Origin: Kutzneria chonburiensis
Lineage (GTDB): Bacteria; Actinomycetota; Actinomycetes; Mycobacteriales; Pseudonocardiaceae
Assembly: GCF_028622115.1 (NCBI RefSeq)
Contig: NZ_CP097263.1
Span: 1,922,001-1,986,000 of the forward strand
Length of the DNA: 64,000 bases
Direction: 5' to 3'
How positions within the stretch are numbered: the first letter of the stretch is position 1; every line of letters begins with the position of its first letter. Made by a program: the position numbers and the translations under genes. Below, piece by piece: positions 10,723-64,000 of this stretch. Below the pieces are notes generated by a model that made no database searches, was not told the origin of the DNA, and saw only the letters and a list, made by a program, of their open reading frames with translations.

Positions 10723-12078
10723 ATGTCCCCACAACCCTTGAACCGCAGATCCTTCTTCGCCGCGGCGGGCGCCGTGTCGCTGGGCGCGGCGCTGGCCGCC
10801 TGTGGCGGCGACACCGGCAGCGCGCAGTCGGTCAGTCAGTCCGATGTGGACAAGGCGCTGTCCACGCCGACCGAGCTGACCTTCTGGACCTGGCTGCCCA
10901 ACGTCGACCGGGAAGTCGCGCTGTTCCAGAAGAAGTACCCGGCGATCAAGGTGAACGTGGTCAACGCCGGGCAGGGCACGCCGCAGTACACCAAGCTGCG
11001 GACCGCGCTTCAGGCCGGCGCGGGCGCGCCGGACATGGTGCAGATCGAGTACCAGTACATCCCGACCTTCACCATCACCGACAGCCTGCTCGATCTGCGG
11101 CCCTACGGCGCCGCCGCGCTCAAGAGCCAGTTCGTGGACTGGACGTGGGGCCAGGTGACCGGGGCCGGCGGCGAGATCTGGGCCATGCCGCAGGACACCG
11201 GCCCGATGGGACTGCTGTACCGGCAGGACATCTTCGACCAGCACGGCATCACGGTGCCCAAGACCTGGGACGAGTTCGCCGACGCCGCGCACAAGCTGCA
11301 CGCCGCCGACCCGAACGTCTATCTGACCAACCTGGCGGCCAATCAGGCCGCGGCCTGGCACGGGCTGCTCTGGCAGGCCGGCGCCAAGCCGTACGTCAGC
11401 ACCGGCAAGAGCGACATCGCCATCAGTGTTAGCGATAACATCAGTAAGCGGCTCGGGAGTTACTGGGGTGGACTGGCCCGCGACGGTGTCATCGGCACCG
11501 AGCCGGACTTCACCGACGCCTGGTATTCGGCGCTGAACAACGGCAAGTACGCCACCTGGATCACCGCCGCCTGGGGGCCGGTCTTCCTGTCCGGCTCGGC
11601 CAAGGCCACGGCCGGCAAGTGGCGGGCGGCCCCGCTGCCGCAGTGGGACGCCGGCTCGCCGCACTCGGGCAACTGGGGCGGCTCCACCACAGCGGTGATC
11701 AAGACGACCAAGAACCCCATCGTCGCCGCCATGTTCGCCAAGTTCCTCAACACCGATCCGGCATCGACCAAGATGTTCGCCACCGAGCAGTTCCTGTTCC
11801 CGGCGACCAAGGCGGTGCTGGCCGACCCGGCCTTCGCCGGCGACAAGCCCGCGTTCTACGGCGGCCAGGCCGTCAACCAGGTGTTCGCCGACATCGGCAA
11901 CACCGTCAGCTCCTCGTTCCAGTGGCCGCCGTTCCTGGACCAGGTGGTCACCGACTGGACGGAGACGGTCGGCAAGTCGTTGGCCGACAAGACCGACACC
12001 GTCGCCGCGCTCGACCAGTGGCAGTCGCGGATCACCGCGTTCGCCAAGAACCAGGGATTCACGGTCGGTGGGAAATGA
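10723..12078 (+). CDS. ABC sugar importer, solute-binding lipoprotein
   Basis: About 451 residues. The N-terminus has a twin-arginine-type motif (NRRSFF) and a lipobox LAAC with the lipidated cysteine at residue 27. The rest is an extracellular solute-binding protein of family 1 (TFWTWLPNVDREVALFQKKYP at the start of the mature domain). It delivers oligosaccharides to the two permeases that follow. The ATG at 10723 was chosen because the lipoprotein signal starts there. No ATPase gene is in the locus; actinobacterial sugar importers commonly share MsiK encoded elsewhere. A LacI-type palindrome at 11427-11440 lies inside the gene and is built from codons unusual for its surroundings (AGT GTT AGC GAT AAC ATC AGT). 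Confidence 0.92.
   Translation: MSPQPLNRRSFFAAAGAVSLGAALAACGGDTGSAQSVSQSDVDKALSTPTELTFWTWLPNVDREVALFQKKYPAIKVNVVNAGQGTPQYTKLRTALQAGAGAPDMVQIEYQYIPTFTITDSLLDLRPYGAAALKSQFVDWTWGQVTGAGGEIWAMPQDTGPMGLLYRQDIFDQHGITVPKTWDEFADAAHKLHAADPNVYLTNLAANQAAAWHGLLWQAGAKPYVSTGKSDIAISVSDNISKRLGSYWGGLARDGVIGTEPDFTDAWYSALNNGKYATWITAAWGPVFLSGSAKATAGKWRAAPLPQWDAGSPHSGNWGGSTTAVIKTTKNPIVAAMFAKFLNTDPASTKMFATEQFLFPATKAVLADPAFAGDKPAFYGGQAVNQVFADIGNTVSSSFQWPPFLDQVVTDWTETVGKSLADKTDTVAALDQWQSRITAFAKNQGFTVGGK
11427..11440. promoter_or_regulatory. Intragenic LacI-type palindrome TGTTAGCGATAACA
   Basis: A 14-base near-perfect palindrome with a central CG, 704 bases into the solute-binding-protein gene. It is the same sequence as the site at 54298 and one base from the perfect intergenic copy at 28725. 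Confidence 0.6.
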
Positions 12079-12956
12079 GGGCGGTGACCATGGGACCGCG
12101 TCGGGCCGGGGCGCTGTTCGTCGCCCCGTTCCTCGCGCTGTTCCTGCTGCTCTTCCTGGCCCCGCTCGGCTACGCCGCCTATCTCAGCCTGTTCCAGCAC
12201 CGGCTGATCGGCGGCACGGTGTTCGTCGGGCTGGACAACTACCTCAAGGCCGTCACCGATCCGGTGTTCCTACGCGGAGTCGCCCGCGTTGCCACGTTCT
12301 TCGTGATCCAGGTGCCGGTAATGCTGGTGCTGGCCCTGGTGTTCGCGCTAACACTGGACAGCGGCCTGCTGCGGCTGGCGCGGGTGGTGCGGCTGGGCAT
12401 CTTCGTGCCGTACGCGGTGCCGAGCGTGGTCGCCGCGCTGATGTGGGGCTACCTCTACGGCCGGGACTACGGGCCGTTCGCCCAACTCGGGCGGCTGCTG
12501 CACGTGCCGGTGCCGGACTTCCTCGGCGGCAGCTGGCTGTTGGGCAGCCTGGCCAACGTCGTGACGTGGGAGTTCGTCGGCTACAACATGATCATCCTGT
12601 ACGCGGCGCTGCGCACCATCTCGCCCGACCTGTACGAGGCGGCCGCGGTGGACGGCGCCGGGGCGTGGCGGATCGCCTGGTCGGTCAAGCTGCCGGCGCT
12701 GCGGCCGGCGCTGGTGCTGACCCTGCTGTTCTCGGTGATCGGCAGCTTCCAGCTGTTCAACGAGCCGAAACTGCTCCAGCCACTGGCTCCCGCCGTGATC
12801 GACAGCGGCTACACGGCCAACCTCTACGCCTACTCGCTCGCGTTCACCGGCCAGCAGGTCAACTACGCGGCCACCGTGTCCTTCCTGCTGGGCCTGGTCA
12901 TCGTGGCGGTGTCGTACGGCTTCCTGTTCGCCTCGAACCGGAGGAGGGAAGTGTGA
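12075..12956 (+). CDS. ABC sugar importer permease (MalF-type)
   Basis: About 293 residues with six predicted membrane helices. The MalF-type coupling motif is EAAAVDGAGAWRIAWSVKLPALRP. The ATG at 12075 overlaps the stop of the binding-protein gene (ATGA); an internal ATG at 12090 behind GAGGGCGG is an equally good start. It pairs with the next gene to form the transmembrane channel. A TGTTCGCGCTAACA palindrome lies inside the gene at 12340-12353 and brings the rare codons CTA and ACA. Confidence 0.93.
   Translation: MRAVTMGPRRAGALFVAPFLALFLLLFLAPLGYAAYLSLFQHRLIGGTVFVGLDNYLKAVTDPVFLRGVARVATFFVIQVPVMLVLALVFALTLDSGLLRLARVVRLGIFVPYAVPSVVAALMWGYLYGRDYGPFAQLGRLLHVPVPDFLGGSWLLGSLANVVTWEFVGYNMIILYAALRTISPDLYEAAAVDGAGAWRIAWSVKLPALRPALVLTLLFSVIGSFQLFNEPKLLQPLAPAVIDSGYTANLYAYSLAFTGQQVNYAATVSFLLGLVIVAVSYGFLFASNRRREV
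12340..12353. promoter_or_regulatory. Intragenic LacI-type palindrome TGTTCGCGCTAACA
   Basis: A 14-base site 265 bases into the permease gene, with one deviation from the perfect palindrome. The identical 14-mer occurs inside the GH115 gene at 53089-53102. Confidence 0.55.
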
Positions 12957-13870: not shown

Positions 13871-13893
13871 CCACCCCGCTGGGAGGTTCGTCC

Positions 13894-15984: not shown

Positions 15985-15994
15985 AGAGGCATCG

Positions 15995-21373: not shown

Positions 21374-23506
21374 TCAGGAGACGGCGATGACCGCGTTGTG
21401 GTCGCCGCCCGGCGTGACGCTCACGGTGAACAGGTGGGTGGAAGCGTTGTAGGACACCGTGCCGGCGCTGCCGTCGGTCGCCGTCACCTGCGGGGCCGAC
21501 GGGGCGTAACCGTGCAGGGTGACCGACTTCTCGCTGGATGCGAACGCCACCGTGGCGTGCACTGTGCCGTTGTCCGACAGCTGCGAGATTCGCTTGCCGC
21601 CCAACGACACGAACTTGCCGGCGTCGCCGAGGAAGGCGATCCCGGACTGTCCGACCGGTGCGATCACGTAGTACGAGCCGGAGTTGACCGTGTCGGTGAA
21701 GGTGCCGCCGGCCGGCACGATCTTGCCGGTGCCGGTGAAGTAGTTGTACACGTAGGCGTCGCCGGCCACCCCGACGTTGCTCGGGCTGAAGCCGACCGCC
21801 TGGGAGCCGTTGTTGCGGGCATAGGCGAAGACGTAGCCGTCGCGCAGTCCATTGTGGTCGGTGTAGGTGCCGGCCACCATCGGCGCGCTCGAGTTCTGCG
21901 CCACCGCCGGGTAGACGGAGTCCAGCGGCACCAGCGAGACGTCCGGCTTGACGATCACGCCGTCGCCGCGGACCGTCTTGGCCAGGTTCGACACGCTCTC
22001 CTTGCCGATCGCGTCACCCACGCCGACCATGCCGCCGGACAGCGTGGACAGCACCAGGTTGTTGGTCTCGGTGCTCATGAAGACGTCGGTCCACGGCCAT
22101 TCGCCCAGCGCGCCGGCCATCCGCGAGTCGAACAGGAACGTGTCCCACTTGCTCCGGTCGAACCGGTCAAGGCTGACCCTGGTCGTCTGGAGGTTCTGGT
22201 ACTGCGTGCTCTGGAGGTTGTTCCATGGCAACGCCATGCAGTACTGGAGGGTGACATTGTCCGCGGCGGCCGAGTGGGCCATGTTGCCGAGGAAGGCGTT
22301 GGGGTCGCTGAGGTTGTAGTGCGGCTGGGCATCGGCGGACAGCCAGTCCTGCTCGTACGTGACGACCCCGGAGTTGGCCAGGTAGCTCATGGTGCTGTTC
22401 CAGAAGTTCGGGTCCGTGATCACGGAGCCGGACATCGAGTACTGCCCGTGGTAGGGACTGGACGGGTCGATCCACCGGGCGTGCGTGATCAGCGGGAGGT
22501 TGACCTGTTTCTGGAACGCGGCCAGCCCGCCGGGGAACAGATCCGGTGCGGCGCGGTAGGTGTACTCGCCGCCGCGGTTGGTTCCATTGCCCTGCCAGCT
22601 GTTCGACGACCCCTTCGGATACCACCAGCTGTCCAGCTGCATGTAACCCAACGGAATCCCGCGTGAGGCGAAGTCCTGGGCGACGGCGGTCAGCGTGCCG
22701 GCATACCCCTTGGACGTATCGTAGTTGTAGTAGTAGGTGGCGCCGTTGTCCGTCCAGTAGCCCAGCTTGTTGAGCGTGGCGTTGGCGTCATTGGCGATCG
22801 TGTGCTTCCCGCCCAGCGCCATCAGCGCCGAACCCCAAGTGCCATAGGTGTTGTTGACGCCGTCACCCAGCGCCAGCACCGTGCGGTGGGTGAAGTTCGC
22901 CGGCAGCGTCGACACGCCGGAGATGATGCCGGCCGCCACAGTGTTGCTACTGCTGCGAGTCAGGTTCGCCACCGCGAAGTTGTCGGCGGCGGATATCAGG
23001 TAGCCGTGGTTCTGCGCGTCGAACGTCAACAGTGGACTGTCGTGGGCCACCGATCCGTTGAACTGGTACGGGGACCAGGCCGCGTCCTGAAAGGACTCGT
23101 GGTAGGGCAGCGCGGGCGCGGCCAGCGACGGGAACGGCGTGCCGGTGTTGGCCGCTGAGGTCGTGTTGGTAGCGCTGAACAGCACCACCGGAGTGTTCTG
23201 GTACACCCGGATGCTGGCCGTGCGCCGCACGCTGTCGGTGTAGGCGAAGTCGATCTCCTGGTACGGGCCGACAGCGTCGCTACCGGATGCGTTGCTCTGG
23301 CTGGTGACCGGGTGGCCGACGCCGCCGGTGAACGTCCAGGCGGCCGGCTGGGTGGTGTGGAGCTGGTAGCTGCCGTCGGCGGCCACGGACGCGGTGATCC
23401 CGGACGCGGCGACCTTGGCCGGCGGCGTCTGGGCGCTGGCTGTGCCGCCGGTGCACGCCAGGCCGGCGACCAGCAGCGCCGCCACCGGAAGAGTGAGCTT
23501 GTTCAT
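21374..23506 (-). CDS. Secreted putative glycoside hydrolase of unassigned family
   Basis: About 710 residues with a Sec signal peptide (MNKLTLPVAALLVAGLACTG...ASA). An N-terminal beta-rich domain to about residue 240 is followed by a TIM-barrel-like region with aromatic, acidic strand ends of a retaining glycosidase: LGYWTDNGATYYYNYD, GYMQLDSWWYPKG, VVTYEQDWLSADAQ and a later RVSLDRFDRSKWD, then a beta C-domain. The layout is reminiscent of clans GH-D and GH31-like enzymes, but no family signature is convincing. The ATG at 23506 has a GGAGA site. It is the last gene of the GH30-GH54-GH54-GH29 operon, so a side-chain-removing activity on arabinan, xylan or arabinogalactan is likely. Confidence 0.7.
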   Translation of the reverse strand: MNKLTLPVAALLVAGLACTGGTASAQTPPAKVAASGITASVAADGSYQLHTTQPAAWTFTGGVGHPVTSQSNASGSDAVGPYQEIDFAYTDSVRRTASIRVYQNTPVVLFSATNTTSAANTGTPFPSLAAPALPYHESFQDAAWSPYQFNGSVAHDSPLLTFDAQNHGYLISAADNFAVANLTRSSSNTVAAGIISGVSTLPANFTHRTVLALGDGVNNTYGTWGSALMALGGKHTIANDANATLNKLGYWTDNGATYYYNYDTSKGYAGTLTAVAQDFASRGIPLGYMQLDSWWYPKGSSNSWQGNGTNRGGEYTYRAAPDLFPGGLAAFQKQVNLPLITHARWIDPSSPYHGQYSMSGSVITDPNFWNSTMSYLANSGVVTYEQDWLSADAQPHYNLSDPNAFLGNMAHSAAADNVTLQYCMALPWNNLQSTQYQNLQTTRVSLDRFDRSKWDTFLFDSRMAGALGEWPWTDVFMSTETNNLVLSTLSGGMVGVGDAIGKESVSNLAKTVRGDGVIVKPDVSLVPLDSVYPAVAQNSSAPMVAGTYTDHNGLRDGYVFAYARNNGSQAVGFSPSNVGVAGDAYVYNYFTGTGKIVPAGGTFTDTVNSGSYYVIAPVGQSGIAFLGDAGKFVSLGGKRISQLSDNGTVHATVAFASSEKSVTLHGYAPSAPQVTATDGSAGTVSYNASTHLFTVSVTPGGDHNAVIAVS

Positions 23507-28724: not shown

Positions 28725-28738
28725 TGTTAGCGCTAACA
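28725..28738. promoter_or_regulatory. Perfect LacI-type operator TGTTAGCGCTAACA
   Basis: A perfect 14-base palindrome with central CG, 32-45 bases upstream of the GH30 start, in the position of the promoter of the minus-strand operon. It is the only intergenic copy of this motif family in the window; seven variants lie inside genes. Confidence 0.75.
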
Positions 28739-33837: not shown

Positions 33838-35682
33838 GTGCCCAAGCCCGAATCTCCGTTGTGCCAAGGGCAATTCCTCTCCGGTGGGGTGCCGCTGCCG
33901 CCGTTGCGCATACCGCGGTCCGATATGGACCTGGACCAGCAGCCGATTTCGCTTGTCCGCTGGCGGGAGGACGCGAAGATCGGGTTGTTCGTCCACTGGG
34001 GCGTGTATGCCGGGCCGGGCAAGGGGGAGTGGCACCAGCACGAGGCGCGGATCAAGCCGAGCGTGTACCGCGGCTTCCTCGAGGACGATTCGCCGGAGCA
34101 GTTCACCGCCGATCGCTACGACCCGGCGGCGTGGGTGCGGCTGGCCGAGGAGATGGGTGCGAAGTACGTGGTGCTGACCGCGCGCCACCACGACGGCTTC
34201 GGCCTCGCCGCCAACTCCCATCCGAACGCCTGGACGAGCCTCCAGCCGCCGCTCGAGCGGGACTTCGTCGCCGAGTACGTGTCCGCGGTGCGAGCAGCCG
34301 GTCTGAAGGTCGGGCTGTACTACTCGCCGATCGACTGGCGCTACCCGGGTTATTACAACGTCACAGGTGCAGCGAGGCCTTCACCGTGGAACCTGGAGGA
34401 CTCCTCCGACGCCTTCGACTATCACGCCGACGCACGCGTGTTGAAGGAGGAGGTCTACCAGGCGGTCAAGCAGTTGGTGACCGAGTACGGCCCGATCGAC
34501 GACCTGTGGTGGGACGGGGGCTGGCTGGCCGAGGAGGGCCTCGACGCCGACGCCGCCTTCTTCTGGGAGCCCGGCCGTTTCCGCGATCCGGCCAACGAGT
34601 GGCCGGTGGACGAGTACGGCTCCATCGACGACTCGACCGGGCGACCGCTGGGGTTGATGGGGATGGTCCGTGCCCACCAGCCGCACCTCGTGGCGAACTC
34701 CCGTTCCGGTTGGGCCGGTGACTATGGCGTCGAAGAGGGCAGCTACGTGTCGACCGGGCCGCTGCGCCGAGGCCTGGTGGAGAAGACCTTCACCATTCGG
34801 GGCCACTGGGGCTACACCGCGGCGGCCACGTCGATGAGCTACGACGAGATCGTCGCCTTGGTGGTCAACAGCCTCGTCCGGAACATGACCACCCTCATCA
34901 ACGTCGGTCCGGACCGGCACGGCGAGGTGCCGCAGGACTCGGTCGACGTGCTGCGCCGGCTCGGCACCTTCCTGTCCGAGTGCGGCGAGTCCGTCTACCA
35001 CACGCGGGGCGGCCCGTGGCAGCCCGTCGACGGCCAGGTCGGCTATACCTACCGTGGCGCAACCTTTTATGTGCACCTGTTGCCCGGGCAACCCGCCGGC
35101 CGGTTCACCACACCGGCGATCGGCGACGCCCGCGTCCGTCGCGTTTTCGACGTGCGCACCAAGCGGAATCTGCCGTTCCAGGTGAGCCTGGACGGCCGCG
35201 TGACGATCTCCGACATCGACCGCCGCGGACATCGGCCGGATACCGTGCTCGCCGTGATGTTGGACCGCTCAGTCGTGGCCACCGATGTCGCGGCCGCCGG
35301 AATCGCCACGGCGGACAGCGAAGTTAGCGGTAACACCGCCGCCAGCGCGATCGACGGCGACACGGCCACTCGGTGGTGTGCGGCCGATGATGCCGTCGGT
35401 CATCGGCTCCAGGTCGACCTGGGCCGCTTCGTCGACCTCACCGGCGTCCGGATCGCGTGGGAGCTGCCGGACCAGACCTACCGCTACCGCCTCGACAGCT
35501 CGATCGACGGCATCACGTGGTCCACCGTCGCCGACCGCACCGACAACACCGACACCGCGCAGGTCCACACCTTGGCCTGCACCGGGACGACACGCCATCT
35601 GCGCGTCACGGTCACGGGCCTGGACACCGGCCGTCGGGCCTCGATCCGTTCGTTCGAGGTCTTCGACCGCCCGTTCAGCTGA
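33838..35682 (+). CDS. GH29 alpha-L-fucosidase with C-terminal F5/8-type (CBM32) domain
   Basis: About 614 residues with no signal peptide. The GH29 domain spans about residues 35-360: GLFVHWGVYAGPGKGEWH, TARHHDGFGL and the nucleophile D226 in DLWWDGGW. A beta domain follows, then an F5/8 type C (discoidin, CBM32-like) domain over the last 140 residues (GNTAASAIDGDTATRW). The GTG at 33838 has GGAGG six bases before it. As an intracellular fucosidase it could act on imported fucosylated xyloglucan oligosaccharides. A LacI-type palindrome at 35322-35335 lies at the start of the CBM32-coding part and uses A/T-ending codons. Confidence 0.9.
   Translation: MPKPESPLCQGQFLSGGVPLPPLRIPRSDMDLDQQPISLVRWREDAKIGLFVHWGVYAGPGKGEWHQHEARIKPSVYRGFLEDDSPEQFTADRYDPAAWVRLAEEMGAKYVVLTARHHDGFGLAANSHPNAWTSLQPPLERDFVAEYVSAVRAAGLKVGLYYSPIDWRYPGYYNVTGAARPSPWNLEDSSDAFDYHADARVLKEEVYQAVKQLVTEYGPIDDLWWDGGWLAEEGLDADAAFFWEPGRFRDPANEWPVDEYGSIDDSTGRPLGLMGMVRAHQPHLVANSRSGWAGDYGVEEGSYVSTGPLRRGLVEKTFTIRGHWGYTAAATSMSYDEIVALVVNSLVRNMTTLINVGPDRHGEVPQDSVDVLRRLGTFLSECGESVYHTRGGPWQPVDGQVGYTYRGATFYVHLLPGQPAGRFTTPAIGDARVRRVFDVRTKRNLPFQVSLDGRVTISDIDRRGHRPDTVLAVMLDRSVVATDVAAAGIATADSEVSGNTAASAIDGDTATRWCAADDAVGHRLQVDLGRFVDLTGVRIAWELPDQTYRYRLDSSIDGITWSTVADRTDNTDTAQVHTLACTGTTRHLRVTVTGLDTGRRASIRSFEVFDRPFS
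35322..35335. promoter_or_regulatory. Intragenic LacI-type palindrome AGTTAGCGGTAACA
   Basis: A 14-base variant of TGTTAGCGCTAACA inside the GH29-CBM32 gene, about 1.48 kb from its start. The codons read GTT AGC GGT AAC within a run of G/C-ending codons. Confidence 0.5.
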
Positions 35683-40999: not shown

Positions 41000-42958
41000 T
41001 CAGCGCAGCACGGCGCAACCGCCGGGCGGCAGTTCGCGCACGGTGGTGGCGGTGACGAGGTCGTGAGCGGCTTCCGGTAGGCGCACCGGTTCGGTGGTGT
41101 GGTTGAGCACGAAGCGCCAGTGCCGGCCGTCCGGGGCATGACGCGTGACGCACTCGACGCCGGGCGGCAGGTCCGGCAGATCTGGTGTGACATCGGCATC
41201 GGCCAGCAGACGCGCCACCAGAGCGGCATAGGCGGCGTCGTCGAGACGGGTGGACACGTACCAAGCTCGGCCGTGCCGGGTGACGGCCGGAGAGTCGGCG
41301 AGCATGCCGGTGGTGTACGTGGCAACGGCTTCCGCACCGTCCAGTCGCACGGACTCGCTCCAGACGGAGGCAAATGTGCCGTCGGACAGCGGGATTCGCT
41401 CGTCGCGCGCGAGCGGCCGGTGCTCCTCGACTCGAATGCCCAGCGCCTGCCGCAACTCAGCTGTCGGGTAGCCGCCAAGCCGCGCGTGGAGGCGCTCATC
41501 GACCACGCCGGTTGCGTACTGCACGAGCAGCGTGCCCCCGGCCTCGACATAACGGCGCAGGTTTGCCGCGCCTGCATCGGAAAGCACGAACAACGCCGGC
41601 GCGAGCACGAAGCGGTAGCCGTGAAGGTCATCCTCGGGATGGGCGAAATCGGTGGTGACGCCGGCATCCCACAGCACCCGATGGACGCGGCCGAGGGTTG
41701 AGTGGTAATTGAGGTCGGCAGACGGTGAGCCGTCGCCTGTCATGGCCCACCAAGAGTCGGAATCGTGGAGGACGGCGACGTCGGCCCGGACGGTGGAACC
41801 GGCCAGCTCGCCCAGCCGACCGAGGATCTCCCCGAGTTCCGTCACCTCACGGTGGATGCGGCTGTCCGGCCCGGCGTGCGGGACCATCGCCGAATGCCAC
41901 TGCTCGGCCCCGGCCTTGGACTGCCGCCACTGGAAGAACAGGGCGCCATCGGAACCGTGGGCGATGTGGGCGAGGCTGTGCCGCAGGATGTCGCCGGGTT
42001 CCTTGGGGAGAATGCGATCGCCCACGTAGACGGTGTTCGTCCCCTGCTCCATCAGCAGCCACGGGCGGCCAGCGCCGAACGACCGGGCCCGGTCGCCGCC
42101 GAACGCGGTGTCGGCGGCGGCGTCGATGCCGGGCGCGATCGGATAGTGGTCGATGGCGACCACGTCGACTTCCCGGCCGAACTGCCACAGGTCGAGGTTC
42201 TGGTAGCCGGGCACCATGAGGTTGGTCGTCACCGGGCGGTCGCTGTGGGCGCGGATCGCGTCGCGCTGTTCGCGGTAGGCGGCGAGCACCTCGTCCGACC
42301 AGAACCGCCGGAAGTCGAGCGCCTGACCGGGGTTCTTGTGCCACTGGGTGGCGCGCGGCGGCAAAATCTGCTCCCACGCCGTGTAGTGCTGGCTCCAGAA
42401 GGCCGTTCCCCAGGCTTCGTTCACCGCGTCGAGCGAGAGGTAGCGCTCACACAGCCAGGCGCGGAACGCTTCGGCGACATGGTCGCACCAGCACAGTGTC
42501 GTGTATTCGTTGTGCACGTGCCACAACGCCAGCCCGGGATGGTCGCCGTAGCGTTCGGCCAGGGCGGAGGCGATGCGGCGGGCTGCCGTGCGATAGGCCG
42601 GCGCGGCGGTGCAATAGGTGTCGCGGCTGCCGTGCACGAGCCGAACGCCTTCGGCGGTGACCGGCAGCGCATCGGGGTGGGCGAAGGTGAACCAGGGCGG
42701 GGGAGAAGCGGTCGGGGTAGCCAAGTTAGCGCTAACACCGTTGGCATGTAGGCGATCGAGGTGGGCGTCGAGCCAGGCGAAGTCGAAGACGCCCTCCGCC
42801 GGTTCCAACAGAGCCCAGGAGAAGACGCCGACCGTGGCCAGGTTGACCTTGGCCCGGCGCATCAGCTCGTCGTCCTCCTTCCAGACCGGCTCGTCCCACT
42901 GTTCGGGGTTGTAGTCGCCGCCGAAGGCCAGCCCACCGAGCCGGTTGGTCAGGCTCAT
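41000..42958 (-). CDS. GH42 beta-galactosidase
   Basis: About 652 residues with no signal peptide. The GH42 signature is GGDYNPEQWDEPVWKEDDELM near the start. The acid/base is E151 in HVHNEYTTL and the nucleophile E304 in LLMEQGTN. The trimerisation domain (VLAPALFVLSDAGAANLRRYVEAGG) and C-terminal beta domain are present, so length is normal. The ATG at 42958 overlaps the GH31 stop by four bases and has GGGGGCGG. In a xyloglucan pathway it would remove the beta-galactose on side chains. A palindrome at 42724-42737 lies about 220 bases into the gene. Confidence 0.93.
   Translation of the reverse strand: MSLTNRLGGLAFGGDYNPEQWDEPVWKEDDELMRRAKVNLATVGVFSWALLEPAEGVFDFAWLDAHLDRLHANGVSANLATPTASPPPWFTFAHPDALPVTAEGVRLVHGSRDTYCTAAPAYRTAARRIASALAERYGDHPGLALWHVHNEYTTLCWCDHVAEAFRAWLCERYLSLDAVNEAWGTAFWSQHYTAWEQILPPRATQWHKNPGQALDFRRFWSDEVLAAYREQRDAIRAHSDRPVTTNLMVPGYQNLDLWQFGREVDVVAIDHYPIAPGIDAAADTAFGGDRARSFGAGRPWLLMEQGTNTVYVGDRILPKEPGDILRHSLAHIAHGSDGALFFQWRQSKAGAEQWHSAMVPHAGPDSRIHREVTELGEILGRLGELAGSTVRADVAVLHDSDSWWAMTGDGSPSADLNYHSTLGRVHRVLWDAGVTTDFAHPEDDLHGYRFVLAPALFVLSDAGAANLRRYVEAGGTLLVQYATGVVDERLHARLGGYPTAELRQALGIRVEEHRPLARDERIPLSDGTFASVWSESVRLDGAEAVATYTTGMLADSPAVTRHGRAWYVSTRLDDAAYAALVARLLADADVTPDLPDLPPGVECVTRHAPDGRHWRFVLNHTTEPVRLPEAAHDLVTATTVRELPPGGCAVLR
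42724..42737. promoter_or_regulatory. Intragenic LacI-type palindrome AGTTAGCGCTAACA
   Basis: The 12-base core is a perfect palindrome. On the coding strand it reads GGT GTT AGC GCT AAC TTG (Gly-Val-Ser-Ala-Asn-Leu), a run of codons avoided in the rest of the gene. Confidence 0.6.
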
Positions 42959-52608: not shown

Positions 52609-52609
52609 T

Positions 52610-55600
52610 TCACCGCTGGACGCTCGCCGGCGGCCCGAGGTAGCTCGGCCGGAGGCCGCCGGTGTCGACCACCAGCTTCTGCACGATGACCGTGGGATCG
52701 ACCATCCAGAACTTCAGCGTGTGCGGTCCCGGCGTGCCGATGGTGTGCCGGGTCCGCGTCAGGTTGATGTTGTCGGAGGTGTTGCGCTCCCACTGCCGGT
52801 TCAGCGCGGTGCTGTCCGACCCCGTCGCCGCGATCACGTCGACCACCTGCGGCGCCTGGTCGTCGAAGGCGACGGCGTAGCGGAGCCCGGGTGTGGGCAG
52901 GACGTCGTTGCGGGGTGAGAGATAGGCCCAGACGGTGACGACGCCGGTGGTGAACAGCGACATCCGGTATTCAAGGCGCGGGCCGGTGCCGGCGGGCTGG
53001 CTCGTGGCGGTGACCGGGAACGGCTTCATGCCGGCTCCGTGGCGACCGATGTCCGGAATGCGTTGCCAGGTCACACCGTGCGCAGCAATGTTCGCGCTAA
53101 CATCATCGGCGTTGACGGACACGTATCCATTGGCTTCGACGAAGCCGTGTCCCCAGGTGGGCGGTAGCTCCCGGTGGGCGACCACGGCCCGGACGGTCAC
53201 GCTCTCGCCCGCGCCGGTGATGACCACCGGCACCGTGGTCGTGCCGATCGGGGCCCGTCGCCAGTCGACGTGGAACGTCACCCGGGTCTGCCGGTCCACG
53301 ACGCCGGCCGGGCGATCGGCCACAAGCCACGGCGTATCGGTCCACACGCGATAGGTGAACCGCTTGGCGCCACGGTTGAACACGTCGATGTACTGCGCCG
53401 GCTGGCTCTGGAACGGGCTGAACTCCGGCAGCATGGCGGTCTCGGACGCACCCGGCCAGGACAGCGCGGAGCCGTCGATAGCCACTCCCAGCACGCCGTC
53501 CTCGGCCAGCGGGATGCGGCGGACAGCCGGGAACAGCACATCGGGAATGGCGGCGTTGTCGACCTGCGGCTGCTGCCAGCCGGCGTCCGGCCCGTAGCGG
53601 GCGACGTCGCCGTAGTCGATGTGCGGCTGCGTCTGGAAGCCACGCCACTTCCCGCCGGCGATCTCGGTGTTGAAGCGGTCGGCCAGGGCGAGGTCCTGGG
53701 CGAACCGGGCCTCGGCCTCGTCGGCCAGGTCGTTGGCTGCCGCCCGGCCCTGCTCGGCGTACAGGAGGTTGGTGAACTCGGCCCGGCGCAGTGCGTGGAG
53801 GTTGGCCATCGAGGACACCTCGTACTGCACCAGTTCGAAGTACGGGTCCCGCGACGCGGCCGGCAGCCGGTCGCCGATCTGTTCGGCTCGCACGGCCAGC
53901 TGGTGCCACTGATCGGTGACCCGGTCCAGCTCGCCGTAGTCGACCAGGCTGTACGGGCTGGCCTGGTCGTCGTAGACGATGGCCGTCGGATCGGTCGAGG
54001 GATCCTTGCCCGGGGCGACACTGATGCGCCGGTTGAGCAACTCGGGTTTGCGCAGCGCTTGCAGCCGGCCGTAGTCGTGCAGCAGGTCACCGAGCTCGTC
54101 GGCGACTCCGGCGCCGAGGTTCTGTCCGGCGTACCCACGTTCCCAGGTGGACAGTTCCGACAGCGGCAGCGCGGTCGGATTCCAGGCGTAGTCCAGGAAG
54201 AACTGCAACGGCAGCTCGTTGCCCTTCAGGTCGCCGACGTTGGCCACCCACAGCCGCCTGATCCCGTACTCGTAGGCCTGGTTGAGCTGCTCCCAGGTGT
54301 TAGCGATAACACTGGTGTCGTTCCACTTGTAGCAGCGGCCCGACCCGACGAAGTCGAAGTGGTAGTACAGGCCGTACCCGCCGGACCGTGACGGCAGGCC
54401 CGGGTCAGGCAGCTTGCGCAGGTTTCCCCAGTTGTCGTCGGGAAAGACGACCGTGACGTCGTCGGCCGGCCGCAGGCCCTCGACCCAGTACCGCATCACT
54501 TCGGTGTAGAGCGTCCACACCTGGGGGACCGTCGCCGGGTCGCGCCCGGTGACGTCGGCCAGGATCTTCCGCTCGGCGGCCAGGATGTCGCGCATCAGGT
54601 CGATGCTGTCACCGTCGGGCAGCCGGGTGTCGCCGGTGCCGCGCATGCCGACGGTCACCACGCCCTCGAAGTCCTGGGTCACCATGCGGCGGATGCCGTC
54701 GGCCCAGTACGCCCGGAGCGCGTCGGCGTTGTGCCGGAAGCTCCACTCGCCCGTGCCGCCATACGGATCGTGCCCCGGCGTGGTGATCGTGCCGTCCGGG
54801 CCGCGGACGGCCGGGACGGCGTGCCGGTTCCACTCCTCTATGCCCCGCATCATCGGCGCTTCGTGCGAGGTCCCCATGACGATCCCGTACCGCTTGGCCG
54901 TGGCGTGGTTGAGCGGATCGTCCTCGGCGAAGGCCCGCCCCCACACTGCCGGCCACAGGTAGTTCGCCCGCAGCCGCAGCATGGTCTCGAAGACCTTCTC
55001 GTAGAAGCCGTGGTTGAAGCCGCCGGGATGGCCGGGCGCGAGTCCCGGCCCGAAGAAGGCCGGCGCCCACGTGCCCAGCGCCGGATTCTCGTCGTTGATG
55101 AACAATCCTCGGTATTTGACCGCCGGCGGGCCGAGGCTGTGCCGGCCGGGCCGCACGTGCAGCTCGTGACGGTGCAGCGGCGGCACATCGTCCCACCAGT
55201 ACCACGGCGAGACACCGATCTGCCGGGAGATCTCGTAGATGCCGTAGATCGTGCCGCGCTGATCGCTGCCGGTCACCACCAGCGCGCGCTGCGCGGACCG
55301 GGTCACGGTCTCGGTCAGCGAAGTCTCCCACCGGCCGGCGATCCCGGTCGTGTCCAGACCGACGGCCCGCACCAACGGGCTCGCGTCCAACGAGCCGATC
55401 AGCACGACTTCGGCGACCGCCGGCACATGGTCGACGTACAGTCCCGGGCGGACGCCGGTGACCCGCTCGATATCGGCCTGGAGGTCACGGGCCGCGCGCA
55501 CGACACCGGGGTGGTCAGCGGAGCTGACCACCAGTGGCGTGGCCTTTCCGTTGGCCACCAACGGAAAGTCTTCCGGGCCGCCGCGGGACGACAGGTACTG

Positions 55601-55657
55601 CCCCGCGGCAAGGGCTCCTGCCATGCCGAGAAATCCTCGTCGTCCCAACGGTGCCAT
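52610..55657 (-). CDS. GH115 xylan alpha-1,2-glucuronidase
   Basis: About 1015 residues. Residues 1-30 look like a twin-arginine-type signal (LGRRGFLGMAGALAAGQYL). The GH115 core includes GIYEISRQIGVSPWYWWDDVPP, KYRGLFINDENPALGTWAP, YLWPAVWGRAF, GTSHEAPM and DFEGVVTVGMRGTGD, all characteristic. The C-terminal third holds two beta domains with a carbohydrate-binding look. GH115 removes (methyl)glucuronic acid from intact xylan. The ATG at 55657 has GGGGAGG. It is divergent from a LacI regulator and belongs with the GH11 and GH10 xylanases downstream of that. Two LacI-type palindromes lie inside it. Confidence 0.93.
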   Translation of the reverse strand: MAPLGRRGFLGMAGALAAGQYLSSRGGPEDFPLVANGKATPLVVSSADHPGVVRAARDLQADIERVTGVRPGLYVDHVPAVAEVVLIGSLDASPLVRAVGLDTTGIAGRWETSLTETVTRSAQRALVVTGSDQRGTIYGIYEISRQIGVSPWYWWDDVPPLHRHELHVRPGRHSLGPPAVKYRGLFINDENPALGTWAPAFFGPGLAPGHPGGFNHGFYEKVFETMLRLRANYLWPAVWGRAFAEDDPLNHATAKRYGIVMGTSHEAPMMRGIEEWNRHAVPAVRGPDGTITTPGHDPYGGTGEWSFRHNADALRAYWADGIRRMVTQDFEGVVTVGMRGTGDTRLPDGDSIDLMRDILAAERKILADVTGRDPATVPQVWTLYTEVMRYWVEGLRPADDVTVVFPDDNWGNLRKLPDPGLPSRSGGYGLYYHFDFVGSGRCYKWNDTSVIANTWEQLNQAYEYGIRRLWVANVGDLKGNELPLQFFLDYAWNPTALPLSELSTWERGYAGQNLGAGVADELGDLLHDYGRLQALRKPELLNRRISVAPGKDPSTDPTAIVYDDQASPYSLVDYGELDRVTDQWHQLAVRAEQIGDRLPAASRDPYFELVQYEVSSMANLHALRRAEFTNLLYAEQGRAAANDLADEAEARFAQDLALADRFNTEIAGGKWRGFQTQPHIDYGDVARYGPDAGWQQPQVDNAAIPDVLFPAVRRIPLAEDGVLGVAIDGSALSWPGASETAMLPEFSPFQSQPAQYIDVFNRGAKRFTYRVWTDTPWLVADRPAGVVDRQTRVTFHVDWRRAPIGTTTVPVVITGAGESVTVRAVVAHRELPPTWGHGFVEANGYVSVNADDVSANIAAHGVTWQRIPDIGRHGAGMKPFPVTATSQPAGTGPRLEYRMSLFTTGVVTVWAYLSPRNDVLPTPGLRYAVAFDDQAPQVVDVIAATGSDSTALNRQWERNTSDNINLTRTRHTIGTPGPHTLKFWMVDPTVIVQKLVVDTGGLRPSYLGPPASVQR
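53089..53102. promoter_or_regulatory. Intragenic LacI-type palindrome TGTTCGCGCTAACA
   Basis: Identical to the site at 12340-12353. On the coding strand it gives GAT GTT AGC GCG AAC ATT, again with unusual A/T-ending codons, about 2.56 kb into the GH115 gene. Confidence 0.55.
54298..54311. promoter_or_regulatory. Intragenic LacI-type palindrome TGTTAGCGATAACA
   Basis: Identical to the site at 11427-11440, and extended by one base pair to GTGTTAGCGATAACAC. It lies about 1.35 kb into the GH115 gene and 1.2 kb from the other internal site. Confidence 0.6.
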
Positions 55658-55785: not shown

Positions 55786-56832
55786 ATGGGTGCCGAGCAA
55801 GCCGTGACCGCGGACGGAGTTTCGACCACGCCGGCCGGCATCCCGACGCTGGCCGAGATCGCCGCGACGGCCGGCGTCAGCGTTCCGACAGTTTCGAAGG
55901 TCCTCAATGGCCGGGCCGACGTCGCCCCCGGCACCCGGGCCCGGGTCGAGGAACTGCTGCGGGACCACGGCTACCGGCGCAAGCGCGGCGGCGCGCGCCC
56001 GTCCAAGCTGCTCGACCTGGTCTTCCACGAGCTGGACAGCGCGTGGGCGATGGAGGTCATCCGGGGCGTGGAGAACGTGGCCCGCCGCGAGGACATGAGC
56101 ATCGTGCTGTCCGAGTCGGCCGGCCGGCTCACCCCGGGCCAGACCTGGGTGGACGGGGTGCTGGCCCGCCGCCCCAGCGGCGTGGTGCTGGTGCTGTCCG
56201 GCCTGGACCAGGTCCAGCGGGCCCAGCTGACCAGCCGGGACATCCCGTTCGTGGTGCTGGACCCGGCCGGTGACCCGGCCGACGGCGTGCCCGCGGTCGG
56301 CGCCAACAACTGGCTCGGCGGCCTGACCGCCACCCGGCACCTGGTCGAGCTGGGCCACCGGCGGATCGCCATGCTCGGTGGGCCGTTCCGGATGATGTGC
56401 AGCCGCGCGCGGGTCGACGGCTACCGCACCGCGCTGGAGACCGCCGGCATCGGCGTCGACCCGGCGCTGGTGCGGGAGGGCACCTTCCACCACGAGTCCG
56501 GCTACACGGTCGGCCGGGAGCTGCTGACCCTGCCCGACCGGCCGACCGCGGTCTTCGCCGGCAACGACCTGCAGGCCCTCGGCATCTACGAGGCCGCCCG
56601 TGAGCTGGGCCTTCGCATCCCCGACGAGCTCAGCGTGGTCGGCTTCGACGACCTGCCGCTGGCCCGCTGGGTCGGCCCGCCGCTGACCACCGTGCGTCAG
56701 CCGCTGGTGGCGATGGCCGAGACCGCCACCCAGCTCGCGCTCGACCTCGGCCGGGGCCAGCGGCCGGCCGTCACCCGGGTGGACCTGGCCACCACGCTGG
56801 TCGTCCGCAACAGTACAACGGCGGTCCGCTGA
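55786..56832 (+). CDS. LacI-family xylan regulator (XylR/BxlR-like)
   Basis: About 348 residues. The DNA-binding part TLAEIAATAGVSVPTVSKVL with NGRADVAPGTRARVEELL matches actinobacterial xylose/xylan LacI repressors. The effector domain has the usual NNWLGGLTATRHLVELGHRR, FAGNDLQALGIYEAAREL and GFDDLPLARWVGPPLTTVRQP. The ATG at 55786 was kept because the alternative internal starts have no ribosome site. It is divergent from GH115 and upstream of GH11, CE4 and GH10, with GAAA-type palindromes on both sides, so it probably represses both transcripts until xylo-oligosaccharides appear. Confidence 0.9.
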   Translation: MGAEQAVTADGVSTTPAGIPTLAEIAATAGVSVPTVSKVLNGRADVAPGTRARVEELLRDHGYRRKRGGARPSKLLDLVFHELDSAWAMEVIRGVENVARREDMSIVLSESAGRLTPGQTWVDGVLARRPSGVVLVLSGLDQVQRAQLTSRDIPFVVLDPAGDPADGVPAVGANNWLGGLTATRHLVELGHRRIAMLGGPFRMMCSRARVDGYRTALETAGIGVDPALVREGTFHHESGYTVGRELLTLPDRPTAVFAGNDLQALGIYEAARELGLRIPDELSVVGFDDLPLARWVGPPLTTVRQPLVAMAETATQLALDLGRGQRPAVTRVDLATTLVVRNSTTAVR

Positions 56833-56837
56833 CGGCG

Positions 56838-57687: not shown

Positions 57688-57690
57688 GCC

Positions 57691-58343: not shown

Positions 58344-58376
58344 CCACGCCATCCCGCCACGCAAGAGGGGACCATT

Positions 58377-59762: not shown

Positions 59763-59804
59763 CCGAACGCCGGCCCCGACCACGGTCGGGGCCGGTTTTC
59801 GGTC
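59761..59804. terminator. Two-tiered bidirectional terminator
   Basis: The core stem CCGGCCCCGACC (59770-59781) pairs with GGTCGGGGCCGG (59784-59795) and is followed by TTTT. An outer stem GACCGAA (59761-59767) pairs with TTCGGTC (59798-59804). It overlaps the stops of the convergent GH10 and GH5 genes and works on both strands. Confidence 0.9.
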
Positions 59805-61245
59805 AGAACGAAGAGAAGTGAGCGCGAACACCCGCACCGAACGCCGTCGGCGTGCCGTCGTACGAGGTGATCAGCGACGGCCCGCTCGAGCAGTCCCAGG
59901 TGTTCCAGGTCCACGCCAGGTAGGAGGCGGCGTGCTGGTCCAGCCACGACATCAGGCCGTCCACATAGGAGTGTCCGCAGTCGTTCTCGCCGATCTCGCC
60001 GGCCACCAGCGGCACCTTGGCCGCCACCGGCGCGATCTGGCTGTCCCAGCAGGACGACGACGAGCACGTGTTGAAGTTGTACGAGTGCCAGGACGCGGCC
60101 AGGTTGTGCAGTGGATCGGTCGGCTCGTAGGTCAGCCACTGCGACAGGTCGTTGGCGTACGCCAGGCCGCCCACCATGATCACGTTGTCCGCGCCGGCCG
60201 ATCGCACGGCGCTGACCAGCGACTGCGTTCCGGCCACCTGGTACGGGATGCCGGCGCAGGTGCCGCCGTCGCGCAGGCAGGCCCAGCCGTTGGCCGTGGC
60301 GCGGTCCGGATACGGCTCGTTGAACAGGTCGAACACGGTCGAGTCGTCGCCCTTGAAGGCCGCCGCGACCTGGCTCCAGAACGTCGGCGCGTACTGCGCG
60401 TCCGGCATGGGCTTCTGGCAGGTGGCGTTGACGTCCGAGCAGCCGGCGGAGTTGCCGGTGTACTGGCCGTGCGTCCAGTGCAGCTCGACGATCGCGACGA
60501 TCCCGTTCTGGTGCAACAGGTTCACGTAGTCCTTGATCGCGTTCTGGTAGGTCGTGCCGGCGTACTGCGGCTTCACGTCGGACAGCGCCAGCCAGCAGTC
60601 CTCGTTGAGCGGCACCCGGACGGCGTTGACGTGCCAGCTCTTGATGGCCGCGACGGACGTCGCGTCCACCGGGCCGTCGAAGATGCCGTTGCCCTGCACG
60701 CACGCGAACTCCGCGCCGGACCGGTTGACCCCGTGCAGCGTCACCGTTTTCCCGTCGGCGTCCACGAAGTGGTTGCCGGACACCCGCAGCGCGGGTGCGG
60801 GTCCGCCGGGCGGGGGAGGCGGCGGGGGAGGAGTGGTTCCGTTGCAGGGACTGCCGTTGACGGCGAAGTCGGTCGGTTTGTCGTTGCTGCCGCTGTAACT
60901 GAAGTTCGCGCCCGCGGTGACCGAGCCGCTCGGCGGCACGGTCGCGTTCCACGGCTGGTTGGCCACGCTGACTGTCTTGCCGGACTGCGACCACGTGCCG
61001 TTCCAGCCCTGCTGGAGGGTCTGGTTGCCGGCGTACGAGTAGGTCAGCCGCCAGCCGGACAGTGGCGCGGCGCCGAGATTGCCGATGGTGACCGAGGCGG
61101 TGAAGCCGGTGCCCCAGTCGTTGACGGTGTAGTCGACGCGGCAGGCGAGCGTGCCGTCGGCGGCGGCCGGCGCGCTCGGCCCGGCCAGGCCGACCAGGGC
61201 GAAGGTCGCGGCGAGCAGGGGTGCGGCGAAGGTGCCCAATCGCAT
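59803..61245 (-). CDS. Secreted CBM2-GH5 endoglucanase
   Basis: About 480 residues. Signal peptide to about residue 29; CBM2 over about 33-134 (CRVDYTVNDWGTGFTASVTI to NGSPC); a Pro-rich linker; GH5 from about 150 with HGVNRSGAEFAC, VELHWTHG, acid/base E310 in LFNEPYP and nucleophile E417 in LVAGEIGE. The layout matches actinomycete cellulases of subfamily GH5_1 type. The ATG at 61245 has GAGGAG. It is divergent from the GH6 gene, with two CebR-like sites in the shared 266-base region. Confidence 0.94.
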   Translation of the reverse strand: MRLGTFAAPLLAATFALVGLAGPSAPAAADGTLACRVDYTVNDWGTGFTASVTIGNLGAAPLSGWRLTYSYAGNQTLQQGWNGTWSQSGKTVSVANQPWNATVPPSGSVTAGANFSYSGSNDKPTDFAVNGSPCNGTTPPPPPPPPGGPAPALRVSGNHFVDADGKTVTLHGVNRSGAEFACVQGNGIFDGPVDATSVAAIKSWHVNAVRVPLNEDCWLALSDVKPQYAGTTYQNAIKDYVNLLHQNGIVAIVELHWTHGQYTGNSAGCSDVNATCQKPMPDAQYAPTFWSQVAAAFKGDDSTVFDLFNEPYPDRATANGWACLRDGGTCAGIPYQVAGTQSLVSAVRSAGADNVIMVGGLAYANDLSQWLTYEPTDPLHNLAASWHSYNFNTCSSSSCWDSQIAPVAAKVPLVAGEIGENDCGHSYVDGLMSWLDQHAASYLAWTWNTWDCSSGPSLITSYDGTPTAFGAGVRAHFSSF

Positions 61246-61276
61246 TGTCGCTCCTCGAAGGCAGGGTTACACCGAC

Positions 61277-61290
61277 TGGGAGCGCTTCCA
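61277..61290. promoter_or_regulatory. CebR-like operator TGGGAGCGCTTCCA
   Basis: A 14-base site one base from the cellulose-regulator consensus TGGGAGCGCTCCCA known in streptomycetes and Thermobifida, 32-45 bases upstream of the CBM2-GH5 start. Confidence 0.85.
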
Positions 61291-61450
61291 GAGTGCCAGG
61301 AGAGTAACTCCGGTGGAACTCGCTGTAAACAATTCTGGGCCGAGCGGGGTAAAACACATCCGGCGAATGACCGCAGACCGGGCCATGTGTGGTGAATGTG
61401 AACGCGAACCCTTCCGGTCGGGTTGCTGGCTCGTTACAGTCGGCGTCGAC

Positions 61451-61464
61451 TGGAAGCGCTTCCA
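61451..61464. promoter_or_regulatory. CebR-like operator TGGAAGCGCTTCCA
   Basis: A perfect 14-base palindrome of the CebR type, 48-61 bases upstream of the GH6 start. With the site at 61277 it gives each divergent cellulase gene one operator. No CebR gene is in the window. Confidence 0.85.
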
Positions 61465-61511
61465 GAGCGATCGGTCAGCACTCCCCCAACGCTGCGAGGA
61501 GTACTCCGCAC

Positions 61512-63305: not shown

Positions 63306-63312
63306 TCAGCCT

Positions 63313-63360
63313 CTCCCGTCCCGGGCGGTGCCTCCTCCTCCGACCCGCCCGGGACGGGAG
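63313..63360 (+). terminator. Strong hairpin after GH6
   Basis: CTCCCGTCCCGGGCGG at 63313-63328 pairs perfectly with CCGCCCGGGACGGGAG at 63345-63360 around a pyrimidine-rich loop, eight bases past the stop. Confidence 0.85.
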
Positions 63361-63387
63361 TCCCATTCCGGAAAGGAATCCCTGCGC

Positions 63388-64000
63388 ATGCGTCGACGAC
63401 TGCGGGTCGCCCTTGGCGCCGTGGCGGCGCTGATCGCCGCCCTGATCACACCGACTGTTAACGCCAACGCGGCGGCCGTGGCCTGCACGGTCGTCTATAC
63501 CACCAACGACTGGTCCAACGGCTTCACCGCCAACGTGGCCCTCACCAACAACGGCCCGGCGCTGACCAGCTGGTCGCTGACCTGGACCTTCCTGGACGGC
63601 CAGCAGGTGCAGCAGGGCTGGAGCGCCACCATCACCCAGTCCGGCGCCAAAGTTACCGCTAACAACCTGAGCTACAACGGGAATCTGCCGACGGGTGCGT
63701 CCACGTCCTTCGGCTTCAACGGCAGCAAGGGCGCGGCCAACCGGCCGCCGACGGACTTCGCCGTCAACGGCACCGCCTGCACCGGCCCGAACCAGGCCCC
63801 GACGGTGTCGCTGACCTCGCCGCGCGCCACCGACACCTACAACGCCCCGGCGACCATTCCGTTGGCCGCCACGGCGTCGGACAGCGACGGCACCATCAGC
63901 AAGGTCGAGTTCTACGCCGGCGACACGCTGCTGGCCACCGACACCACCGCCCCGTACGCCGGCAGCTGGACCAACGTGCCGGCCGGCACGTACTCCATCA
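63388..64000 (+). CDS. Secreted CBM2-containing cellulase-type protein, truncated by the window edge
   Basis: The 204 residues visible comprise a signal peptide (RVALGAVAALIAALITPTVNANA), a CBM2 from about residue 32 to 131 (CTVVYTTNDWSNGFTANVAL to NGTAC), then the start of a bacterial Ig-like module (APTVSLTSPRATDTYNAPATI, KVEFYAGDTLLATDT). The catalytic domain, if any, lies beyond base 64000; GH48, GH9, GH74 or a mannanase would all fit next to the GH6 and GH5 cellulases. The ATG at 63388 has GAAAGGA. An intragenic palindrome lies at 63651-63664. Confidence 0.85.
   Translation, partial: MRRRLRVALGAVAALIAALITPTVNANAAAVACTVVYTTNDWSNGFTANVALTNNGPALTSWSLTWTFLDGQQVQQGWSATITQSGAKVTANNLSYNGNLPTGASTSFGFNGSKGAANRPPTDFAVNGTACTGPNQAPTVSLTSPRATDTYNAPATIPLAATASDSDGTISKVEFYAGDTLLATDTTAPYAGSWTNVPAGTYSI
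63651..63664. promoter_or_regulatory. Intragenic LacI-type palindrome AGTTACCGCTAACA
   Basis: A 14-base variant 263 bases into the CBM2 gene, read as AAA GTT ACC GCT AAC, with A/T-ending codons between G/C-ending ones. A weaker half-match lies at 63456-63469 near the signal peptide. Confidence 0.45.

Follow-up and report, generated by a model that had tools for sequence, protein, structure and literature searches.

The window analysed here, a stretch of 64,000 nt from a soil actinomycete, carries a 14-base palindrome, TGTTAGCGCTAACA, that recurs mostly inside genes. Are these copies operators, and what could a repressor do from within a coding sequence? The first-pass annotation had listed eight such sites, seven of them intragenic, and ascribed them to an island-wide regulator. 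All eight exist at the positions given there, with 0–2 mismatches and with both identical pairs; seven are deep in called genes and the one at 28725 is intergenic (Table 1). The host proteins do differ, as claimed, since the six genes match distinct Pfam families.

Table 1. Sites and genes of the window (window positions; the last column gives mismatches to the consensus in orthologues)
Feature	Positions	Strand	Location or evidence	Orthologues
Intragenic operator (predicted) TGTTAGCGATAACA	11427..11440	.	704 nt into solute-binding protein gene	
Intragenic operator (predicted) TGTTCGCGCTAACA	12340..12353	.	250 nt into ABC permease gene	G002: 4
Perfect operator (predicted) TGTTAGCGCTAACA	28725..28738	.	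intergenic, 32 nt upstream of GH30-type gene	
Intragenic operator-like site AGTTAGCGGTAACA	35322..35335	.	alpha-L-fucosidase gene, start of F5/8 type C domain match	
Intragenic operator (predicted) AGTTAGCGCTAACA	42724..42737	.	within GH42 gene	G001: 9
Intragenic operator (predicted) TGTTCGCGCTAACA	53089..53102	.	within GH115 gene	G001: 5; G006: 7
Intragenic operator (predicted) TGTTAGCGATAACA	54298..54311	.	within GH115 gene	G001: 4; G006: 4
Intragenic operator-like site AGTTACCGCTAACA	63651..63664	.	within CBM2 protein gene	G006: 4 (incomplete gene)
Host gene, solute-binding protein (SBP_bac_1)	10723..12078	+	Pfam	
Host gene, ABC permease (BPD_transp_1)	12090..12956	+	Pfam	
Host gene, alpha-L-fucosidase with F5/8 type C domain	33925..35682	+	Pfam	
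Host gene, GH42 beta-galactosidase	41000..42958	-	Pfam	
Host gene, GH115, two sites	52610..55624	-	Pfam	
Host gene, CBM2 protein, continues past window	63388..64000	+	Pfam	
Local LacI-family regulator	9566..10615	+	beside first host operon	
Local LacI-family regulator	55786..56832	+	divergent from GH115 gene	

Intragenic excess of the palindrome

The whole genome was scanned with TGTTAGCGCTAACA, the reversed pattern serving as a control. There are 39 sites with at most one mismatch (0 for the control), 23 of which lie in called genes, and 68 with at most two (9 for the control). The fetched stretches of the genome contain 65 of the 68 sites: 64 are situated at 1.52–1.67, 1.77, 1.93–2.12, 3.03 and 3.21–3.27 Mb, and one further site was found in 17 control blocks of 20 kb. 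The cluster regions were chosen for holding sites, while the whole-genome counts with the reversed pattern are independent of this choice. The sites look like LacI-family operators serving several loci. In this respect the idea of an island-wide regulator stands, but not in its extent, as the sites continue beyond the window into two other regions.

We consider a site deep intragenic if it has at most two mismatches and lies at least 60 nt from the gene start. There are 39 such sites, compared to a mean of 0.475 and a maximum of 3 in 200 codon-preserving shuffles, and thus they far exceed the frequency that codon usage sets for neutral sites. The corresponding numbers at no more than one mismatch are 20 and 0.025, and the window itself has 17 matches with at most three mismatches, 0.74 being expected in shuffles. 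Permuted half-site palindromes (420) have on average 0.49 deep sites, with 10 for the next best one. Exact 10- and 12-bp palindromes were ranked by the ratio of observed to shuffled counts in the fetched genes of this genome; of those present in four or more copies, the present one comes first. The Rfam scan of the window at the gathering threshold gave no match.

It is extremely unlikely that these sites reflect a protein motif or chance, that is, are neutral as proposed for PhoB. In phase 2 many sites read V-S/I/T-A/G-N and in phase 1 many read as a hydrophobic residue followed by A-L-T, and homologous CBM13 domains carry four sites at one place, which may be one event. However, the sites vanish in shuffles that keep the protein, they occur in two frames and in unrelated folds, and 36 deep sites are left after three CBM13 copies are dropped. 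A protein motif, chance and codon bias were rejected on the basis of the codon shuffles, the permuted palindromes and the orthologues (see below), which support selection of the intragenic sites as DNA and not as protein, as the first-pass annotation had it. Single weak sites could be due to chance, though the shuffles contradict this for the whole set. A genome-wide trend of LacI-type operators was also rejected: matches to a CebR-type pattern number 8 in this genome (G000), 8 in G003 and 7 in G006, against 3, 0 and 5, respectively, for its reversed control, with no excess in G000.

Three regions hold 36 of the 39 deep sites. The position of the sites along genes is uniform (KS p 0.76), 7 of 39 being in the last tenth of the gene as counted from its start. 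They occupy 36 host genes (36.4 expected) and 31 transcription units (33.4 expected), no more evenly than by chance, and there is no excess of secondary weak sites beside the main ones. Genes were called by our own codon-usage script, and the Pfam scan covered all but four of the 36 host genes, with matches in 31 out of 32 (the CBM2 gene, called at 1985388–1986356 of the genome, was scanned up to the window end). The scanned host gene at 1603241 appears fused or truncated. Ten of the 32 hosts have no evident sugar link and two are unclear.

Comparison with relatives and a second excess

The relatives compared were four genus mates and one more genome of the family. Of the 69 sites examined there, 59 are intergenic and a single one is deep, and in G013 none of the 17 sites examined (out of 19) is intragenic. 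Orthologues were counted in the stretches fetched around the relatives' sites and in one GH115 locus of G006, which yielded alignable orthologues for 21 deep sites (35 pairs). The mean number of mismatches to the consensus is 1.34 in the sites themselves and 5.8 in the orthologues. The divergence is 0.34 in the sites and 0.128 in the flanks (2.7-fold), and that of third positions is 0.59 and 0.24, respectively. Sites near gene starts are conserved (0.25 vs. 0.5, 8 pairs). The alignments show that the deep sites are mostly recent gains, in some cases made by silent mutations alone. They moved towards the consensus, and this direction of change speaks for selection. Since most of them are recent, the synonymous conservation that the first-pass annotation asked for is lacking at 20 of the 21 alignable deep sites; the sole shared one, at 11427 (1933427 in the genome), is identical in G002.

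Layering on a locally regulated promoter was followed in one example. The site at 2009468, 97 nt into a permease gene, differs by two synonymous changes from two relatives, and the promoter, beside a local LacI gene, has a dyad pair intact in three species. The promoter stretches of units with intragenic sites only contain a dyad in 5 of 11 cases and none in the other 6. Site density is 7.9 per 100 kb in genes that lack an orthologue in the site-bearing loci of the relatives and 18.8 in those that have one, a 2.4-fold enrichment of the latter (p 0.018). In the region 1.517–1.632 Mb, 9 of 11 sites are in genes without such orthologues.

A second excess was observed in G253, which belongs to another genus. 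The 16 stretches fetched contain 30 sites with at most two mismatches; 13 are deep, compared to 0.34 in shuffles, although for two of these the distance to the gene start is 61 and 70 nt, and one belongs to a gene with a weak score. In the 100 kb fetched of one contig there are five sites, spread over 22 kb, every one of them in a gene. The G253 intragenic operators apparently arose independently; the orthologue test comprised 12 pairs for only three sites, all with two mismatches, and some of the orthologues are distant. A high site number per se is not the cause: none of the 15 listed loci is intragenic in G111 (37 sites), and among G112, G245 and G253 two of 15 are, both in G253. The 131 matches of G330 are unrelated: the 15 loci examined, 14 of them outside called genes, have palindromic repeats of about 60 bp with the match at their centre.

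The candidate regulator

Like LacI-family operators, TGTTAGCGCTAACA is an even palindrome with a central CG, symmetric in both the intragenic and the intergenic class, and in the relatives the sites are conserved in the promoters of both the targets and the regulator. The most probable regulator is AraR, a LacI-family member whose two gene copies lie at 1.536 and 1.999 Mb, beyond the window, rather than one of the three LacI proteins encoded within it; the one at 9566..10615, with 47% identity to AraR, is not favoured. In all seven genus genomes the two features agree, AraR and the sites being both present in five and both absent in two. The araR genes have a site of their own: it precedes the first G000 copy, both G013 copies and the genes of G002, G003 and G006 by 34–54 nt and the second G000 copy by about 52 nt, and in G001 it is 69 nt away from the aligned start. 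Sites also precede arabinose genes (FGGY kinase, alpha-L-arabinofuranosidases) and, in G253, GH127 and GH62 genes.

Position -2, outside the search pattern, is occupied by A in 29 of 72 intragenic sites (9.2 expected) and in a fraction of 0.43 of the relatives' promoter sites. Since this outer preference is equal in the two classes, they probably share the same binder; a weaker preference for A at -5 is absent from the intergenic sites of this genome. Binding of the intragenic copies by another protein with the same site preference, either of the LacI family or a nucleoid protein, is accordingly very unlikely, even though the genome has 46 LacI-family HTH matches and AraR-like paralogues at 41–47% identity; the paralogue at 2008332 adjoins a different conserved dyad. 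Altered AraR specificity was rejected, as both G000 copies share the recognition stretch SHMTVSRVIN with G002, G003 and G006. Duplication of AraR is not required, since the excess of G253 goes along with a single copy at 54% identity, the next best being at 48%, whereas among the 17 examined sites of G013, which has two copies at 54–55%, none is intragenic.

Possible roles of the intragenic sites

We estimate at about one half the probability that AraR operators were gained in genes and add arabinose control to existing promoters by a roadblock. In this reading an AraR-type repressor of the LacI family would bind the palindrome as its operator, and its older targets would be the promoters of arabinose and arabinan/arabinoxylan genes. 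Point mutations would create operators inside coding sequences, and selection for binding would favour them. RNA polymerase would start from a promoter that has not changed and that in some cases adjoins a LacI gene of its own, and would be halted inside the gene by the bound repressor until the inducer lifted the block; thus arabinose would control the gene and the promoter would be left alone. The uniform position of the sites along genes is compatible with a roadblock, and LacI roadblocks, according to a part of PMC4132739, have effects of up to 25-fold and can be placed behind a promoter that is itself regulated. On the other hand, one site per unit would suit roadblock regulation better than the observed chance-like spread, the sites in the last tenth would leave most of the transcript, and the ten hosts without an evident sugar link do not fit a sugar roadblock.

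Looping with promoter operators, the other mechanism suggested earlier, is not borne out: 5 of 39 intragenic sites are in units with a promoter site, while length share predicts 4.2 (for the three regions alone, 5 of 36 observed and 5.6 predicted). Moreover, LacI-like tetramers are expected to have a C-terminal tail, whereas the ligand-binding domain of AraR ends three residues before the protein end.

A doubtful but possible alternative is that the sites act together over domains of about 65–115 kb, many AraR dimers raising the local repressor concentration or organising the domain, so that any gene of the domain may carry a site and its position in the gene or unit is irrelevant. This agrees with the random-like spread along genes, over genes and over units, with the confinement to three regions, with the independence of intragenic and promoter sites, and with the wholly intragenic G253 cluster. 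The density in genes without orthologues, to which most sites at 1.517–1.632 Mb belong, hints at a regional and not gene-by-gene cause, and the hosts with no evident sugar role leave room for it. However, it is at odds with the enrichment in genes that have orthologues in the relatives' site-bearing loci and with the lack of the tetramer tail in AraR. We tentatively consider that the repressor may have recruited whole chromosomal neighbourhoods, unrelated genes included, through repeated selection for operators at any coding position. This would be position-independent sugar-responsive silencing of domains that evolved at least twice in one family.

Decoys that soak up repressor after araR duplication, with no local effect, are unlikely: two close AraR copies are indeed seen only in G000 among the seven genus genomes, but decoys need no confinement to a few regions, and G253 has the excess with one AraR copy above 50% identity. 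Repression of cryptic promoters inside genes, known for other factors (a part of PMC9600179), is slightly less likely still. The TANNNT motif yields 7 vs. 12.2 within 60 nt of the sites and 7 vs. 3.7 (sd 2.3) within 24 nt, no clear excess, although other promoter types may be missed.

Related systems are known. In E. coli, lac O2 and gal OI are operators of LacI-family repressors inside genes. Each is a lone auxiliary operator that works with one at the promoter, whereas here there are dozens, mostly in units free of promoter sites and mostly recent gains. In B. subtilis the cre sites of CcpA, a LacI-family regulator of sugar genes, also occur in genes and act as elongation roadblocks at xyl, ara and gnt, while most predicted intragenic cre boxes were set aside as too far from promoters (both from a part of PMC3463425). 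With CcpA some of the coding-region sites are functional; the present case differs in the codon-shuffle excess and lineage-specific directed gain, binding and roadblock being predicted. Bifidobacterial AraQ, AbfR and AauR likewise exert LacI-family control of arabinose and arabino-oligosaccharide genes, but from operators that a part of PMC5928203 places upstream of genes, whereas many putative operators here are intragenic. E. coli PhoB has many little-conserved intragenic sites too, weaker than the intergenic ones and inert noise in the view of the authors (a part of PMC10294691); here, by contrast, the excess is about 80-fold and the sequence change is directed to the consensus.

It has been argued that factor sites within bacterial genes are mainly noise or drift (parts of PMC10294691 and PMC6397444), and in the latter part none of more than 40 factors surveyed had significantly more high-scoring genic sites than expected. 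The sites described here provide a clear, recent counter-example, as the orthologues preserve the state that preceded the gain and another genus has a second excess. The selectability and the role of intragenic sites are now directly testable. The case shows a route for synonymous mutations to rewire a regulon: with operators apparently gained inside genes, in some cases by silent changes only, sugar wiring may therefore have evolved via the coding sequence.

Excess of the palindrome inside genes

The first-pass annotation had reported eight copies of a 14-base LacI-type palindrome in the window, seven of them within genes, and all eight are real. The whole 10.4 Mb genome (G000) contains 68 matches at no more than two mismatches versus 9 for the reversed pattern; at no more than one mismatch the counts are 39 (23 within called genes, 16 intergenic) and 0. 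We analysed 460 kb around the sites (524 kb with the window) and 340 kb of control stretches, covering 65 of the 68 sites, one of these in the 17 control blocks.

Deep sites, that is, intragenic sites at least 60 nt from the gene start, number 39 at no more than two mismatches and 20 at no more than one in 408 genes, whereas 200 codon-preserving shuffles of the same genes yield means of 0.475 and 0.025, which bears out the earlier suggestion of selection on the DNA itself. Across 420 palindromes with permuted half-sites the mean is 0.49 deep sites; the real pattern ranks first with 39, ahead of a runner-up with 10. The intergenic density exceeds the intragenic one (22 sites in 44 kb between genes). 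Twenty deep sites score inside the range of 59 promoter sites from relatives. The reading phase is 2 in 29 cases, 1 in ten and never 0, where the pattern gives an in-frame stop. Third-position GC is reduced as far as about six codons away. Adenines at −2 and −5 are over-represented in the intragenic sites; the former is likewise over-represented in the relatives' promoter sites and own intergenic sites, while the latter is weak in the former set and absent from the latter.

Features of the window and the genome
Feature	Position	Remarks
araR	1536164	site 48 nt upstream; further sites at the next gene, FGGY kinase
second araR	1998862	89% identical; G000 only within its genus; site ~52 nt upstream
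dyads TGTTTACGTCAACA / TGTTGACGTAAACA	2009378, 2009412; fetched loci L076:7261, L061:18863	34 bp apart; between LacI gene and ABC permease operon; conserved in three genus genomes
locus with an added AraR-type site	2009468	site downstream of the intact dyads
gains by synonymous changes	2009565, 2030853	purely synonymous
gains with amino acid changes	1975089, 2026187, 3251146	
site identical in G002	1933427 (window 11427)	exception to the lineage-specific gain
LacI orthologue in G002	G002:C1:418033-419010	in-frame TAG; orthologue of window LacI at 9566
sites in CBM13 (ricin-type) domains	3241086, 3248098, 3255442, 3259155	same place in four domains
presumed CebR-like box TGGGAGCGCTTCCA	window 61277-61290	between GH6/CBM2 gene and divergent gene 59803-61245
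710 aa protein	window 21374-23506	adjoins alpha-L-fucosidase gene; no Pfam match at 0.001
operon of very large genes	1612714-1631570	1717, 1502, 1049 aa; one gene with DUF6603 and kelch repeats; NACHT-domain gene near

Gain of the sites and the predicted regulator

We examined 69 of the 71 sites (no more than one mismatch) in the relatives G001, G002, G003, G006 and G013: 59 are intergenic, nine lie no more than 40 nt from a called start, and one is deep. At no more than two mismatches, the relatives' fetched stretches hold one deep site in 693 kb of coding DNA. Orthologues could be aligned at 21 own deep sites (35 pairs), with on average 1.34 mismatches to the consensus in own sites versus 5.8 in the orthologues; divergence per base is 0.34 for site positions versus 0.128 for the flanking sequence. 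Judging by these alignments, most comparable deep sites are gains of the G000 lineage, directed to the consensus. G002, with the stop codon in its LacI orthologue, still keeps the intragenic site in the adjoining binding protein gene. The site in the four CBM13 domains possibly spread by gene conversion.

Among 46 LacI-type HTH matches in the genome, AraR, encoded outside the window, fits as the predicted regulator. Its orthologues in G002, G003, G006 and G013 have a site 34–54 nt upstream, its distribution in the genus coincides exactly with the five genomes with sites, and its recognition stretch is unchanged. The cellulase gene beside the CebR-like box may answer to a second sugar regulator.

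Proposed roadblock or regional role

Intragenic sites are placed uniformly along the gene length. Out of 236 transcription units, 25 contain sites solely within genes, 21 solely at promoters, and four at both; by a slightly different unit rule, five of 39 intragenic sites are in units with promoter sites. At 2009468 the dyads beside the local LacI gene, which are probable local operators, are intact, and an AraR-type site has been added downstream of them. Because of the uniform position, the mostly separate unit classes and this layering, a putative roadblock of transcription is the favoured mechanism.

Two observations speak against gene-by-gene regulation: deep sites look randomly distributed over genes and units, and ten of 32 scanned hosts have no evident sugar role (NRPS-type adenylation domain, racemase, MFS, carboxylesterase, RidA, HAD, cytosine permease fusion, amidase, ECF sigma, Na/H exchanger), two more being unclear. 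A regional role beyond single genes is opposed by the 2.4-fold enrichment (p 0.018) of deep sites in genes for which the site-bearing loci of the relatives contain an orthologue. However, in the three regions where 36 of the 39 deep sites lie, the remaining genes still have a density of 7.9 sites per 100 kb versus none in 297 kb of control coding DNA, and therefore the sites may have such a role.

In the literature, intragenic sites are described as mostly inert (PMC10294691), as originating by drift (PMC6397444), or, in some cases, as acting on cryptic promoters (PMC9600179); LacI is described as a roadblock (PMC4132739), and an actinobacterial LacI-family regulator has one operator downstream of start sites (PMC5526262). 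Our search, with most subscription journals outside its scope, found neither the exact 14-mer nor any paper describing intragenic operators under lineage-specific selection.

A second excess in the family

A search of 390 family genomes gave the highest count of matches (39) for G000, G330 (131) aside. In the 15 loci examined (L176-L190), the G330 matches belong to an unrelated palindromic repeat: each is the centre of a ~60 bp unit (CGTCGACAACGACGTT..) that lies for the most part outside called genes and may be a mobile or structural element. Loci from four other site-rich genomes gave two deep sites, and G253 holds both. The 16 stretches fetched from that genome contain 13 deep sites versus 0.34 in shuffles; the hosts are sugar permeases, GH127, GH62 and an aldolase-type gene, and also ABC-2 transporter, TetR, FAD-binding and histidine-kinase genes. 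Orthologue comparison (12 pairs, at three of the 13 sites) gives 2.0 own versus 6.8 mismatches. In G013, of the same genus as G253, all 17 examined sites are intergenic. Thus the intragenic excess seems to have evolved on two or more occasions.
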